NCBI GenBank assembly: GCA_015654985.1
Contig: JAATFW010000316.1
Location: 1 to 48,115, forward strand
Reading direction: 5' to 3'
Length of the DNA: 48,115 nt
From: Sphingobacteriales bacterium
GTDB lineage: Bacteria; Bacteroidota; Bacteroidia; Sphingobacteriales; Sphingobacteriaceae
The notes beneath the pieces were generated by a model. It did no database searches and was not told the origin of the DNA. It worked only from the letters and a program-made list of their open reading frames with translations. Positions 37,713 to 42,634 of the stretch are shown piece by piece. Numbering within the stretch: the first letter of the stretch is position 1; each line of letters begins with the position of its first letter. Made by a program: the position numbers and the translations under genes.

Positions 37713-38486
37713 TTATCCTTCTTTTAATGATCTTATGAATTCCGGGATTTTTTCCATATAGTTTTCACAGCCCAGCAGCTTCACAAAAGCACTTCCAACA
37801 ATCGCTCCATTTGCATATTCACTGGCTTTACTGAAAGTTTTGTTATTCGAAATACCAAACCCGATCATAGCAGGGTTTTTAAGTTTCATGTTTTTGATCC
37901 TTCTGAAGTAATCTTCGGTTTGAGTGGAAACAGCAAGGTTTTTACCTGTAGTTGATGACGACGAAAGAAGATAAATAAAGCCGTTGCTTAACTCATCAAT
38001 TTTGCGGATCCTCTCATCCGAAGTCTGAGGGGTGATCAGGAAAATGTTGCTGAGGTTGTTGCTTTCAAAGCATGAACGGTACATCTCTTCGTATTCATAC
38101 ACAGGAAGATCAGGTACAATTACGCCATCCACTCCTACTTCGGCACAGGATGCACAAAATCGTTCCACTCCATACTGAAGTACGGGGTTAACATAGCCCA
38201 TCAGCAATATGGGAATGGAAACCCGTTTGCGCAGGTCTTTTAACTGCTCAAAAAGTACTTTTACCGTCATTCCGTTTTCAATAGCCTTTTGGGAACTGTT
38301 TTGAATCACGGGCCCGTCTGCCAGTGGATCTGAATAGGGGATACCTATCTCAAGAAAGTCGGCTCCTGCTTTTTCGAGAGCCTCTGCTACATTGAGAGTA
38401 CTGTTTAATTCCGGATATCCGGCGGTAAAATATATTGAAAGGATAGATCCTTTTTTCTGTTCAAAGGTTTGTTTAATTCTGTTCAC
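37713..38486 (-). CDS. trpA: Tryptophan synthase alpha subunit
   Basis: Cleaves indole-3-glycerol phosphate and channels indole to TrpB. FLEIGIPYSDPLADGPVIQ carries the catalytic Glu46 and Asp57 (Glu49/Asp60 in Salmonella), and the phosphate-binding loop GFGISNN is present. It is the last gene of the trp operon. The start codon appears to be GTG (38486), preceded within 8 bp by a heptad array that fills the trpB-trpA junction, which could affect its translation relative to trpB. Confidence 0.95.
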   Translation of the reverse strand: MNRIKQTFEQKKGSILSIYFTAGYPELNSTLNVAEALEKAGADFLEIGIPYSDPLADGPVIQNSSQKAIENGMTVKVLFEQLKDLRKRVSIPILLMGYVNPVLQYGVERFCASCAEVGVDGVIVPDLPVYEYEEMYRSCFESNNLSNIFLITPQTSDERIRKIDELSNGFIYLLSSSSTTGKNLAVSTQTEDYFRRIKNMKLKNPAMIGFGISNNKTFSKASEYANGAIVGSAFVKLLGCENYMEKIPEFIRSLKEG

Positions 38487-38493
38487 GTTGTAG

Positions 38494-38535
38494 AGTTATG
38501 AATTATGGGTTATGAGTTATGGATTGTATGTTATA
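38494..38535 (-). repeat. Heptad array filling the trpB-trpA junction
   Basis: On the plus strand AGTTATG, AATTATG, GGTTATG, AGTTATG, GATTGTA, TGTTATA in 7-nt register. It covers nearly all of the 44-bp intercistronic region and includes the trpB stop codon (38533-38531). Confidence 0.9.
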
Positions 38536-39712
38536 GATTAAAGTATTTCATATAGGTATCCAGGTCTTTGTCCCCGCGGCCTGAAAGGCAAATAACCACT
38601 GTTTCATCGCCCTTAAACTTCATTTTGTCAAGATAGGCAAGGGCATGAGAACTTTCTATGGCAGGGATTATTCCTTCAAGCTTAGCCAGTTGCAGGCCGG
38701 CATTCATCGCTTCGTCATCGGTAATGCTTACATATTGAGCTCTTTTTGTAGCATACAGATGCGCATGCTGGGGCCCTATGCCCGGATAATCAAGGCCTGC
38801 AGAGATAGAGTAAGGTTCTACTACCTGCCCGTCTTCTGTCTGCATTACAATAGACCTGCTCCCGTGCAGTACCCCTTCTTTTCCTAACAGGGTTGTAGCT
38901 GCAGATTCTCCGGAGTCAACGCCTTTTCCGGCTGCTTCCACAGCAATCAGCTTAACACGCTCGTTGTCCAGAAAATGATAGAACATGCCCATCGCATTGC
39001 TTCCTCCTCCAACACAGGCCATCACGTAATCGGGACTCGAATTGCCGGTTTTTTCAAGAAGCTGCCATTTGGTTTCTTCAGAGATGATCGACTGAAAGCG
39101 TGCTACCATATCAGGATAGGGATGCGGCCCAACTACCGATCCGATAATATAGTGGGTATCAACAGGATTGTTTATCCAGTCGCGTAATGCTTCATTCGTT
39201 GCATCTTTTAAAGTTCTGCTTCCCGAAAGCGCAGGAATGACAGTAGCTCCCATCATTTTCATGCGTGCTACGTTAGGCGCCTGCCGCTCAATATCCACTT
39301 CACCCATGTATACCACACATTCCAGGCCTTTTAATGCACATACTGTAGCTGTTGCAACCCCATGCTGGCCCGCGCCCGTTTCGGCTATGATGCGTTTTTT
39401 ACCAAGGCGCTCTGCCAGCAGGATTTGTCCGACCGTGTTATTGATCTTATGGGCGCCGGTATGATTAAGGTCTTCCCGCTTCAGGTAAATATTAGCGCCA
39501 TATTTCTCAGAAAGGCGCTCTGCAAGGTAAAGAGGCGAGGGGCGTCCTACATAATCTTTCAGTAATCCGAGATATTCTTCTTTAAAAACCGGATCTGCGA
39601 TCATTTCCAGATAAGTCTCTCTTAATTCTTTAATATTGGGATAAAGCATTTCGGGGATATATGCTCCTCCAAAGGTTCCGTAATATCCATTTTCGTTTAC
39701 TTGATAGTTCAT
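38531..39712 (-). CDS. trpB: Tryptophan synthase beta subunit
   Basis: PLP enzyme making Trp from indole and Ser. [13 protein letters not shown] opens the protein, the PLP Lys is Lys89 in [11 protein letters not shown], and GGGSNAMG binds the cofactor phosphate. At 393 residues it is a TrpB1-type subunit. Its start overlaps the trpF stop by four bases (ATGA). Its stop codon lies inside a heptad array. Confidence 0.97.
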
Positions 39713-40398
39713 AAACCCTCCAATCCGCTGTTGCGGAATCTATTTATTTGGTTAAAAATAATTTTTAATTTATTCAGATCTTTCAGTCCCGGTTCTGTTT
39801 CAAAGCGGCTGTTCAGATCAAGTGCGTACAATCTTGAATCTTCTATATTTTCAATATCTCCAATGTTTTCAATTCCTAATCCCCCGCTCAGAAAATAGCT
39901 TTTGACCGTATTATTTTCATTTAGCAGCGACCAGTTAAATACTTGCCCCGAACCACCATGTTGCGTGGTTTTGGTGTCAAATAAGAAATAGTCGGCAAAT
40001 CCTTCGTAAGTATTGAGTATCGTGAAATCAAAACTTTCATCCAATCCAAATGCTTTGATCACTTCAACTCCCATTGCCCTTATAATCCCGCATGTTTCAG
40101 GGGATTCGGAGCCATGAAGCTGAACCGCGTTGAGGCTAAACTGTTCTGCCTTCCCCTGTATTTCGGCGGGAGAAGCATTTACGAATACACCGGTCTTTTT
40201 AATAGAGGGAGGAAGGTCGTCTAATATTCTTTTGTCAAGCGTTTCAGCAAATCGTTTTGATCCGGGATAAAAGATGAAGCCCATATAATCGGGCAGCAAT
40301 GCTGCCACCTGCCTGATATTTTCAGTATTCCGCATACCACAGACCTTGATCTTTAGTCTTTCGGTGTGCGGAACGGATAAATTGGATTCAATGCTCAT
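39709..40398 (-). CDS. trpF: Phosphoribosylanthranilate isomerase
   Basis: Third enzyme of the Trp branch. KVCGMR (active-site Cys20), [17 protein letters not shown]-like [25 protein letters not shown] and FFLSGGLG-like YFLSGGLG are in family order. 229 residues is slightly longer than usual owing to an N-terminal 15-residue extension. The start overlaps the trpD stop by one base (TGATG). A monofunctional TrpF with no TrpC beside it is notable. Confidence 0.93.
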
Positions 40399-41390
40399 CA
40401 GTCGACAGATAAAAGGGTTTTAAAACTTTTAAGAGCCCGTTTACTTAAAAGAGATTCTTCGGCCTCATAGTAACAGTCGGCGAAAGTTTTATCCTGCCGG
40501 ATCGTTTTAATAGCTATTGCTGCGTTGCTTAGCACTACATCGTTTTGAGCGGTGGTCCCTTTTCCGTCGAGTACATTAGTAAAGATAGTAGCTGATTCTT
40601 CCACAGAGCTTCCCCCGCTGATCTGTTCAGGGCAGATTTTTTCAAAACCCAGTTGACCTGGAGTATAAATAAATTCGCCTTCGTTGGAGAATGTTTTAAA
40701 ATTACCGGTAAGAGAAATTTCATCATAACCGTCGAGGGTGTGGAGTATGGTATACTGCTTATCGGACTTCTGATAGAGGTAGGCATAAATACGTGCAAGC
40801 TCCAGACTGAAAACACCCACTACCTGGTACCTGGGTTTTGCTGGGTTTACCATTGGGCCGAGCATATTAAAAAAGGTCTTTACTCCCAGTTCCTTCCGGA
40901 TAGGGCCAACATTTTTCATTGCAGAATGAAAAAGCGGGGCATGCAGAAAGCAGATCCCTGCTTCTTCAACACTTCTCTTGAGGTGAGAAGAGTCGTTCCT
41001 GAATTTATAACCCAGGAATTCCATCACGTTGGAAGATCCGCATCCCGAAGATACCCCGTAATTACCATGTTTGGCTACTCCGTAACCTGCACCGGCCACA
41101 ACGAAGGATGCAAGGGTAGAAATATTAAAAGTGTCTTTCCCATCGCCTCCTGTACCACAGAGATCAATTAACTGGTATTGTTCCAGTCCCGGATTAAGGC
41201 AAAGTTCAAGCATGGCATCCCTGAATCCCTCCAACTCGTCGACAGTGATACTGCGCATACAATAAGCAGTCATAAAGGCGGCCATCTGCGACGTATTATA
41301 TTTACCGCCGGTAATATTTGTCAGAATTGCCTTGGCCTCCTGTGAGTTGAAACTTTTGTGTTCAAATAAGTGATTTAATATTTGTTTCAT
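40398..41390 (-). CDS. trpD: Anthranilate phosphoribosyltransferase
   Basis: Transfers phosphoribose to anthranilate. The PRPP-binding GTGGDGKDTFNIS (79-91), KHGNYGVSSGCGSSNV, and FFNMLGPMVNP are canonical; 330 residues is normal. It is the first structural gene after the attenuator, whose terminator ends 30 nt before its ATG. trpE and trpG, which usually precede it, are not here. Confidence 0.96.
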   Translation of the reverse strand: MKQILNHLFEHKSFNSQEAKAILTNITGGKYNTSQMAAFMTAYCMRSITVDELEGFRDAMLELCLNPGLEQYQLIDLCGTGGDGKDTFNISTLASFVVAGAGYGVAKHGNYGVSSGCGSSNVMEFLGYKFRNDSSHLKRSVEEAGICFLHAPLFHSAMKNVGPIRKELGVKTFFNMLGPMVNPAKPRYQVVGVFSLELARIYAYLYQKSDKQYTILHTLDGYDEISLTGNFKTFSNEGEFIYTPGQLGFEKICPEQISGGSSVEESATIFTNVLDGKGTTAQNDVVLSNAAIAIKTIRQDKTFADCYYEAEESLLSKRALKSFKTLLSVD

Positions 41391-41420
41391 TTTAATTTAT
41401 TTTCTTTGCCCGGCAAGGCA

Positions 41421-41447
41421 AAAAAAAAGGTTGCCTTGTAGGCAACC
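41421..41447 (-). terminator. Attenuator terminator of the trp operon
   Basis: On the minus strand GGTTGCC (41447-41441), loop TACAA and GGCAACC (41435-41429) form a perfect 7-bp GC-rich stem followed at once by eight T residues (41428-41421). This is a textbook intrinsic terminator placed between promoter and first gene. No other gene ends here, so it must act as an attenuator. Confidence 0.88.
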
Positions 41448-41488
41448 CTGTTTCTTTCTATAAGAATATATACATATACAGTTTTGCC
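41441..41488 (-). promoter_or_regulatory. Candidate antiterminator stem of the trp leader
   Basis: GGCAAAACTG (41488-41479) can pair with CAGGGTTGCC (41450-41441): five pairs, a two-base mismatch and three pairs. The second strand contains the left arm of the terminator, so the two folds exclude each other. The first strand starts two bases after the leader stop codon, where a ribosome that finishes the leader would cover it. Confidence 0.6.
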
Positions 41489-41489
41489 A

Positions 41490-41540
41490 CTACGATTTGT
41501 AGAAGTGCCACCACCAGATATGTACGCTGTTTAGTTTCAT
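41490..41540 (-). CDS. trpL: trp operon leader peptide (WWW)
   Basis: A 16-codon ORF, MKLNSVHIWWWHFYKS, with three consecutive Trp codons (41516-41508). Three adjacent TGG codons in so short an ORF, between a good promoter and a terminator upstream of trpD, are strong evidence for a Trp-sensing leader peptide. By the usual logic, scarce Trp-tRNA stalls the ribosome on these codons, leaving the antiterminator arm free and allowing trpDFBA transcription. With ample Trp the ribosome reaches the stop codon, masks that arm, and the terminator forms. No Shine-Dalgarno sequence is seen, as is normal in this phylum. Confidence 0.88.
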   Translation of the reverse strand: MKLNSVHIWWWHFYKS

Positions 41541-41550
41541 TGCTGTGAGG

Positions 41551-41581
41551 CAAATATGATGATATCTTTTGTTTCTGCAAA
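41551..41581 (-). promoter_or_regulatory. Promoter of the trp operon
   Basis: Minus-strand TTTG (41581-41578) and CATATTTG (41558-41551) are separated by 19 nt, matching TTTG-N19-21-TAnnTTTG with one mismatch. The leader ATG is 10 nt further on. Confidence 0.7.
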
Positions 41582-41604
41582 ATTTATTTACAGTTCTGGT
41601 AGGA

Positions 41605-41639
41605 AGTATCAAGTATCAAGTATCAAGAAACAAGACAAA
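41605..41639 (+). repeat. Heptad array (AGTATCA x3)
   Basis: AGTATCA (x3), AGAAACA, AGACAAA in 7-nt register just upstream of the trp promoter, between the divergent trp and YitT genes. Same unit as at 7149-7190, some 34 kb away. Confidence 0.88.
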
Positions 41640-41749
41640 GAAAGTGTTGTCAATTTTTGCTATATTGGGAGACCGATAGTAATAGCCAAAGTATTTCATG
41701 GTTTTGCCTTGCTGCCTGATACTTGCTGCTGAAATATATCAGAACAAAT

Positions 41750-42634
41750 ATGATCAACAGAAAAAAGAAACACTATTTAACACTCAGAGAAAAAATTAAA
41801 AAAGTTTTGCTTGTTTGTGCAGGAGTCCTGCTTGCCGCTTTTGGCTTAAAGGGCTTTCTGGTACCTAATGGATTTATCGACGGAGGGGTAACCGGGATCT
41901 CACTGCTGGTCAATCATATTACAGGTGTTCCTGTATCGGTATGGCTCGTGGTATTTAATGCTCCGTTTATCCTTATCGGGCTGCGTCAGATCGGTAAATC
42001 CTTTGCTATTTTTACATCATTGGCGGTAGTAGGCCTTTCCATTGTAATATATCTCTTCGATTTTCCGGTAATTACCCATGACAAGTTGCTGATCTCGATT
42101 TTCGGAGGATTTTTTCTGGGTGCCGGAATCGGGTTTGCCATGAGAGGAGGCTGTGTTTTGGATGGAACTGAGATTATTGCCGTGTATGTTAACCGCAAGA
42201 GTGCTTTTTCTATCGGCGATACCATTATGGTTATTAATGTACTTATCTTTATCTGTGCTGCTTTTGTTTTAGGTATAGAGGCGGCGCTTTATTCGATACT
42301 TACTTATCTGTCGGCTTCAAAAACAGTCGATTTTATTATTCAGGGGATTGAAGAATACACCGGAGTTACTATCGTTTCGGCAAAAAGCAAAGAAATTAAA
42401 GAAGCCATTATTTCTAATCTTGGCAGGGGCGTTACCCTTTATAAGGGCGAACGCGGCTATGGAGGCAGTCAATACAGCGATAAGGAAATTGATATTGTAT
42501 TTACCGTAGTAACGCGCCTGGAGGTGTCGAAAATAAAAGAAGTGGTACGGCAGATCGACAGAAAGGCTTTTATGGTGATGAATGTTATTACCGAAACAAA
42601 GGGAGGTATTATAAAGCAAAGGCCGCTGCATTGA
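41750..42634 (+). CDS. YitT family membrane protein
   Basis: A 294-residue protein with five hydrophobic helices (DUF161) and a C-terminal soluble DUF2179 domain. FLVPNGFIDGGVTGISLLVN, AMRGGCVLDGTEIIAVYVNRK, and GVTLYKGERGYGG are family signatures. Transport is often assumed for this family, but no substrate is established. The start at ATG 41750 removes a short upstream extension. Confidence 0.88.
   Translation: MINRKKKHYLTLREKIKKVLLVCAGVLLAAFGLKGFLVPNGFIDGGVTGISLLVNHITGVPVSVWLVVFNAPFILIGLRQIGKSFAIFTSLAVVGLSIVIYLFDFPVITHDKLLISIFGGFFLGAGIGFAMRGGCVLDGTEIIAVYVNRKSAFSIGDTIMVINVLIFICAAFVLGIEAALYSILTYLSASKTVDFIIQGIEEYTGVTIVSAKSKEIKEAIISNLGRGVTLYKGERGYGGSQYSDKEIDIVFTVVTRLEVSKIKEVVRQIDRKAFMVMNVITETKGGIIKQRPLH

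Follow-up and report, generated by a model that had tools for sequence, protein, structure and literature searches.

A probable ribosome-mediated tryptophan attenuator before trpDFBA in a Sphingobacteriaceae genome, one of two on a split trp operon

We analysed a 48,115-nucleotide stretch of Sphingobacteriaceae DNA (the window; contig JAATFW010000316.1 of assembly GCA_015654985.1) and found on its minus strand a leader region that is very probably a classical ribosome-mediated transcription attenuator for trpDFBA, and one of two attenuators regulating a split trp operon. The parts of this region, their order, conservation, frame and spacing, and the terminator and antiterminator pairings come from sequence; from these we infer the transcription start, translation of the leader, ribosome stalling and the response to Trp.

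The elements are arranged on the minus strand in the order promoter, leader ORF, antiterminator arm, terminator with T run, and trpD-F-B-A. TTTG, the candidate −33 element (41578..41581), is located 19 bases 5′ of CATATTTG (41551..41558), which by its sequence and by comparison with relatives is a candidate −7 element of the Bacteroidota sigma-A type. Placing the sigma-A box of Flavobacterium psychrophilum, reported at −12 to −5 (PMC9723704), on the window coordinates would leave a 5′ untranslated region of 6 nt (41541..41546). The leader ORF, MKLNSVHIWWWHFYKS, has 16 codons (41490..41540; ATG at 41540, stop codon TAG at 41492-41490), including three consecutive TGG (Trp) codons (41516-41508). 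Folding predicts a protector hairpin 1:2 over 41470..41525, formed by GUACAUAU...AUAUGUAU and an inner stem. Sequence, pairing tests and folding all point to segment 2, GGCAAAACTG (41479..41488), as the 5′ arm of an antiterminator, and to segment 3, CAGGGTTGCC (41441..41450), as the partner of either segment 2 or segment 4. The intrinsic terminator, recognized by sequence and covariation, consists of GGTTGCC-TACAA-GGCAACC (41447-41429) and a run of nine T (41428-41420), and takes up 41420..41447 altogether. A first-pass annotation of the window had named these elements, and direct reading of the sequence found all of them at the places given there, with two corrections: arm GGCAAAACTG begins one base, not two, after the leader stop codon, and the T run has nine residues, not eight. 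We shuffled the 450 nt before trpD 3000 times, preserving dinucleotides: a WWW leader followed by a terminator was seen in none of the shuffles, and any short ORF (ATG start) with W.W or WW followed by a terminator in 2; the WWW leader and terminator before trpD are not due to chance.

NCBIfam models confirmed the downstream gene order trpD-F-B-A, as had been proposed from the letters alone. Three minus-strand genes scored above curated cut-offs: trpD (40398..41390, ATG at 41390; TIGR01245, 298.6 bits), trpB (38531..39712; TIGR00263, 591.7 bits) and trpA (37713..38486; TIGR00262, 244.8 bits). The fourth, trpF (39709..40398), was recognized by phosphoribosylanthranilate isomerase models (best 163.8 bits), all below their curated cut-offs. 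The next gene-like ORF upstream of the leader is on the opposite strand (41723-42634, plus), and the transcript ended by the terminator is, therefore, most likely that of the leader itself. This divergent ORF gave a single NCBIfam match, far below cut-off. In other phyla trp genes are known to be controlled by TrpR, TRAP and T-box RNAs, and a trans-acting sensor of this sort (with the T-box reading tRNA-Trp) could be thought to control the terminator. We regard this as extremely improbable, given that neither TrpR nor TRAP had a match in the source genome (88% complete) and that no T-box family was among the 14 Rfam matches to window positions 40900-42000 at E values up to 10.

In the attenuation mechanism that we favour, RNA polymerase would start a few bases 5′ of the leader ATG and a ribosome would load at the 5′ end. 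When Trp-tRNA is plentiful, the ribosome would proceed to the stop codon and cover segment 2, segments 3 and 4 would pair, and transcription would end before trpD. When Trp-tRNA is scarce, the ribosome would stall on the UGG codons, leaving segment 2 free to pair with segment 3, and polymerase would read through. If the leader were not translated, segment 2 would be held in hairpin 1:2 and the terminator would form. In folds with the ribosome edge placed for each of the three Trp codons, the antiterminator formed as long as segment 4 had not yet been made (−14.5 to −15.8 kcal/mol); with the ribosome at the stop codon, the window RNA formed the terminator and not the antiterminator. The ribosome-free RNA folded into hairpin 1:2 plus the terminator (−34.6 kcal/mol, z −3.15). 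When the folds took in five bases of the T run, all six stalled states had the terminator in their best fold. The terminator thus wins as soon as segment 4 is made, so the switch would need kinetic trapping, and timing would matter. The switch of the E. coli trp attenuator likewise relies on kinetic trapping. Directly 3′ of the T run we noted GCCTTGCC (41419-41412, minus strand), which pairs with segment 4 in folds of the read-through RNA; a fold from 41505 that included the bases to 41412 kept the antiterminator and had segment 4 paired with GCCTTGCC. This pairing is a possible extra stabilizer of the open state.

We searched 60 relatives for the same arrangement; with the source genome counted in, the Sphingobacteriaceae were represented by 37 genomes. 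trpD was present in 31 of them (five had no match and one a 53-residue fragment), and 30 were assessable, the remaining one having just 183 nt upstream of trpD. A tandem-Trp leader followed by a terminator was found 5′ of trpD in 27 of these 30; the alignment of trpD upstream regions proposed with the first-pass annotation thus recovered both the Trp-rich ORF and the stem. Among 80 named trpD loci, 59 were taken by title as Sphingobacteriaceae or near kin, and 58 of these had the leader, in two cases more than 500 nt upstream of trpD. Removal of duplicates left 81 distinct trpD leaders. No leader was found directly 5′ of trpD in 32 loci from other families (21 named loci and 11 from the 60-relative search; one had only 206 nt upstream). 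In that short upstream region (L032, genome G048), repeats of about 50-60 nt with AAGCCCC.TAGGGGTG.CATCTTA occupy most of the 206 nt. Eight other-family genomes of the 60-relative search had their trpE and trpD matches on one contig, at most 1.4 kb apart. The trpD match in G005 (C77) and the trpE match in G012 (C1) are each in two pieces with in-frame stops, the result of either sequencing error or decay.

The conservation extends to frame and spacing. Of 77 anchored sequences (85 in total), 74 have the Trp codons in an uninterrupted frame 0, and 58 have a distance of 27 nt from ATG to TGGTGG. In 80 of the 81 trpD leaders segment 2 begins 13-19 nt past the last Trp codon. In an alignment of 49 of the 81 leaders, 97.5% of terminator cells were paired, six of nine pairs showed double changes, and double-change cells numbered 27 against 6.4 in shuffles. 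The terminator is, indeed, the strongest and best covarying element, as it would be if the leader peptide were incidental and the hairpin a partly leaky constitutive terminator that sets only the basal level of trpDFBA. We consider such a terminator very unlikely, in view of the tandem Trp codons kept in frame, the spacing and pairing of segment 2, and two observations described below, namely the same design with other arms before trpE and the three genomes in which the tandem-Trp leaders have been lost together.

For the antiterminator, 86.2% of cells were paired, compared with 28-56% in slid versions. The column pairing of 86.2% compares with 84.9% in shuffles (6 of 500 shuffles reached it), and the three double-change pairs with 1.9 (reached by 127 of 500), so that the column covariation of the antiterminator is modest. 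The energy of pairing between a leader's own segment 2 region and segment 3 was equalled by at most 5 of 100 shuffles in 73 of 81 trpD leaders and in 26 of 35 trpE leaders. Column counting was tried for hairpin 1:2 as well, and dropped because the position of the helix shifts by one column from one relative to another. Compared with base-composition shuffles, the stretch from ATG to segment 3 was among the best 5% in 60 of 81 trpD and 15 of 35 trpE leaders, and the local 1:2 hairpin had p of 0.05 or less in 50 of 81 and 14 of 35, respectively. The leader region thus shares with E. coli-type trp attenuators a tandem-Trp ORF in a conserved frame, a terminator before the first gene and, as judged by folding and comparison, a mutually exclusive antiterminator. 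The Trp-attenuator reading put forward by the first-pass annotation is borne out by the Trp ORF, stems and T run shared by relatives, by the compensatory changes in the terminator and by the conserved antiterminator pairing.

The leader might also act through translation, by reinitiation at trpD or as a trans-acting peptide, rather than through termination; a Trp leader peptide with functions in trans has been reported from Sinorhizobium (PMC7298713). We judge this highly improbable in the present case. The terminator lies between the leader stop codon and the trpD ATG, which are 99 nt apart, and the distance between the two ATGs varies from 116 to 525 nt across the 81 leaders, which does not favour reinitiation.

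In E. coli there is a single Trp leader, before trpE. In the source genome trpE is found together with trpG and trpC on contig C70, where a second WWW leader and terminator (locus L001 of genome G000, about 700-898) precede trpE-trpG (898-2900), with trpC farther down the contig. The leader reads MLNAGHTQNWWWHANRSAGNRYVYTA and is followed by the terminator AACCCGGCG-CGAAAA-CGCCGGGTT. The trp genes are thus split into trpEGC and trpDFBA, and each half appears to carry an attenuator. The first-pass annotation had singled out the start of the operon at trpD; this is true, and is explained by the split, the trpE half being elsewhere with an attenuator of its own.

The second attenuator is likewise conserved. 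A strict rule found a leader 5′ of trpE in 26 of 32 Sphingobacteriaceae loci, and a looser rule (L072, L073) and inspection by eye (L071, with a GTG start) brought this to 29; tandem Trp codons were absent upstream of trpE in the other three (L075, L078, L082). Both leaders could be judged in 30 genomes, of which 27 had both and three neither, the genomes lacking the trpD leader being the very ones without tandem Trp codons before trpE (G007, G031 and G013; loci L022, L026, L031, L075, L078 and L082). As G007 and G031 belong to one genus and G013 is a reduced genome, these represent at most two independent losses. Loss of the tandem-Trp leaders, as read from these upstream regions, is coordinated between trpD and trpE. 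At L022 the GATATTTG box and a terminator-like hairpin are kept while the leader ORF is gone. In other families, 9 of 11 trpE loci had a leader by the strict rule; one of the others had a single Trp codon and one had WCC.

We compared the segment 2 regions of the two operons by exchanging them. For all 81 trpD leaders and for 34 of 35 trpE leaders, a leader's own region outperformed the mean of the regions from the other operon. In swaps within a set it outperformed the mean in 47 of 81 and 30 of 35, respectively; swaps among trpD leaders matter little because the arm is conserved. The stem letters thus differ between trpD and trpE while the mutual exclusion of 2:3 and 3:4 is kept, which is the strongest argument for a switch. 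The differing stem letters on the two halves of one split pathway also provide matched test objects (with predicted 5′ regions of 6 nt and none), and the two attenuators suggest how a regulon may stay together after operon fission in a genome without a TrpR or TRAP match.

The rarity of such attenuators in Bacteroidota is weaker than the first-pass annotation had claimed, since Trp leader RNAs are already on record there (RF01692, PMC2864571, PMC6414381). Rfam family RF01692 (Bacteroid-trp), an entry in Table 1 of PMC2864571, resembles the window leader in having a short tandem-Trp ORF, a hairpin over the Trp codons and a position 5′ of trp genes in Bacteroidota. The alignment of the window leader covers model positions 1-131 and scores 32.7 bits, below the gathering score of 49. 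Nine of 17 trpD loci given to the model matched it at 32.7-47.5 bits and none above 49, compared with 0 of 12 Sphingobacteriaceae trpE loci and three of five other-family trpE loci. In a phylum sample of 296 genomes, 27 had a match above cut-off, with a single family (f26) accounting for 25, and the 29 genomes with any match under strict filters included none from the window's family, of which the sample held at least eight. Eight RF01692 members that we inspected by eye stand before trpE-like (seven) or trpB-like (one) ORFs, with TTTG-to-ATG gaps of 5-22 nt; the window leader differs in standing before trpD, with a gap of 10. RF00513 (Trp_leader) also shares the Trp-codon leader, antiterminator and terminator, and differs in belonging to another phylum; in a search of 1.1 kb it reached 30.6 bits (E 0.00055), below its gathering score of 41. 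In a profile built from eight RF01692 loci and nine other-family leaders, trpD leaders scored higher than trpE leaders (reported medians 18.2 vs 10.2 bits); with the nine other-family leaders alone the difference was small (12.5 vs 9.8). These scores bear on which leader is ancestral, and may also reflect convergence.

In F. psychrophilum, structured 5′ regions before amino-acid operons give clues for leader peptide attenuation (PMC9723704), and a Bacteroid-Trp RNA before its trp operon has been compared with the E. coli attenuator (PMC6414381); these are putative attenuators of the leader-peptide type, upstream of amino-acid operons, as here. The available excerpts of both accounts describe neither a split operon with two attenuators nor a near-leaderless leader cistron, and neither twin trp attenuators in Sphingobacteriaceae nor near-leaderless Trp leaders turned up in open-licence papers, which were searched mostly by title. 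This kind of attenuator is thus already known in the phylum, and the window adds a member from a family that goes undetected when the Rfam model is applied at its cut-off. Two points supported by sequence go beyond this finding: the probable presence of an attenuator on each half of the split operon, and leader cistrons that are probably near-leaderless.

The short distance from promoter to ATG, pointed out in the first-pass annotation, is real and conserved. Of 81 trpD leaders, 80 have TTTG and 67 have [TC]A..TTTG no more than 60 nt from the ATG; when 66 leaders were aligned by their −7 box, T stood at the first two places of the −33 element (TTTG) in 93% and 100%. Using the F. psychrophilum box position, we took a TTTG-to-ATG gap of g as a 5′ region of g−4 nt. 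The gap is 4-13 nt in most leaders: among the 80 trpD leaders with TTTG, 69 have a gap of 13 nt or less, as do 30 of 32 trpE leaders from all families (35 in total); when [TC]A..TTTG within 60 nt is demanded, the counts are 56 of 67 and 22 of 23, respectively. A gap of 4 was seen in seven trpE leaders, six from the source genome's own genus and so not independent; their boxes read TTCATTTG, without the expected A at the second place, and each has TTTG 20 nt before the box, where a −33 element is expected. The source genome has gaps of 10 before the trpD leader and 4 before the trpE leader, corresponding to predicted 5′ regions of 6 and 0 nt; a second TTTG at gap 19 in its trpE leader has no −33 partner. 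The pattern TANNTTTG...ATG...TGGTGG was also tried on this genome and gave nine matches, none on the contig of either leader (boxes CATATTTG and TTCATTTG); one match that we inspected (L048) proved to be where an ordinary reading frame begins.

Our control consisted of ordinary ORFs, trp ORFs included, that code for at least 150 aa and are preceded by 60 nt of non-coding sequence; they came from the window and from Sphingobacteriaceae loci. [TC]A..TTTG within 100 nt was present in 38 of 248, with a gap of 13 or less in 11 of the 38 (3 of 8 for window ORFs alone). Short gaps are thus common to some ordinary ORFs and not unique to Trp leaders, and, the sequences being related, we give no p-value for the comparison. 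In Bacteroides thetaiotaomicron 3.7% of 5′ regions are reported to be shorter than 10 nt (PMC7366714), in F. psychrophilum 5.5% are leaderless and the median is 24 nt (PMC9723704), and in F. johnsoniae 87% are longer than 10 nt (PMC6847099). Against these baselines the leaders stand out more sharply than against our own ORF control. With promoters so near the ATG, the Trp leader cistrons are probably near-leaderless, the start site being placed from sequence. The lack of a Shine-Dalgarno sequence, which had been presented as a peculiarity of this leader, is genuine and yet not special, being general in the phylum (PMC6847099).

Attenuation of this kind demands a ribosome close behind the polymerase, and a conserved attenuator is, thus, an indirect sign of transcription-translation coupling, here in Bacteroidota, which do without Shine-Dalgarno sequences. 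We tentatively propose, with a little less than even confidence, that mRNAs of Sphingobacteriaceae Trp leaders start 0-10 nt before the ATG, so that, with no need for a Shine-Dalgarno sequence, a ribosome would load on the newly emerged 5′ end and pace the polymerase; and that the splitting of the operon left the attenuator most similar to the phylum-wide one before trpD and a diverged one, with other stem letters and the same logic, before trpE, keeping both halves under one Trp signal. Farther 5′ of the trpD leader promoter, CTTGATACTT-like tandem repeats occupy window positions 41627-41604 (minus strand), and a similar stretch is found near the same place in a relative (L004).
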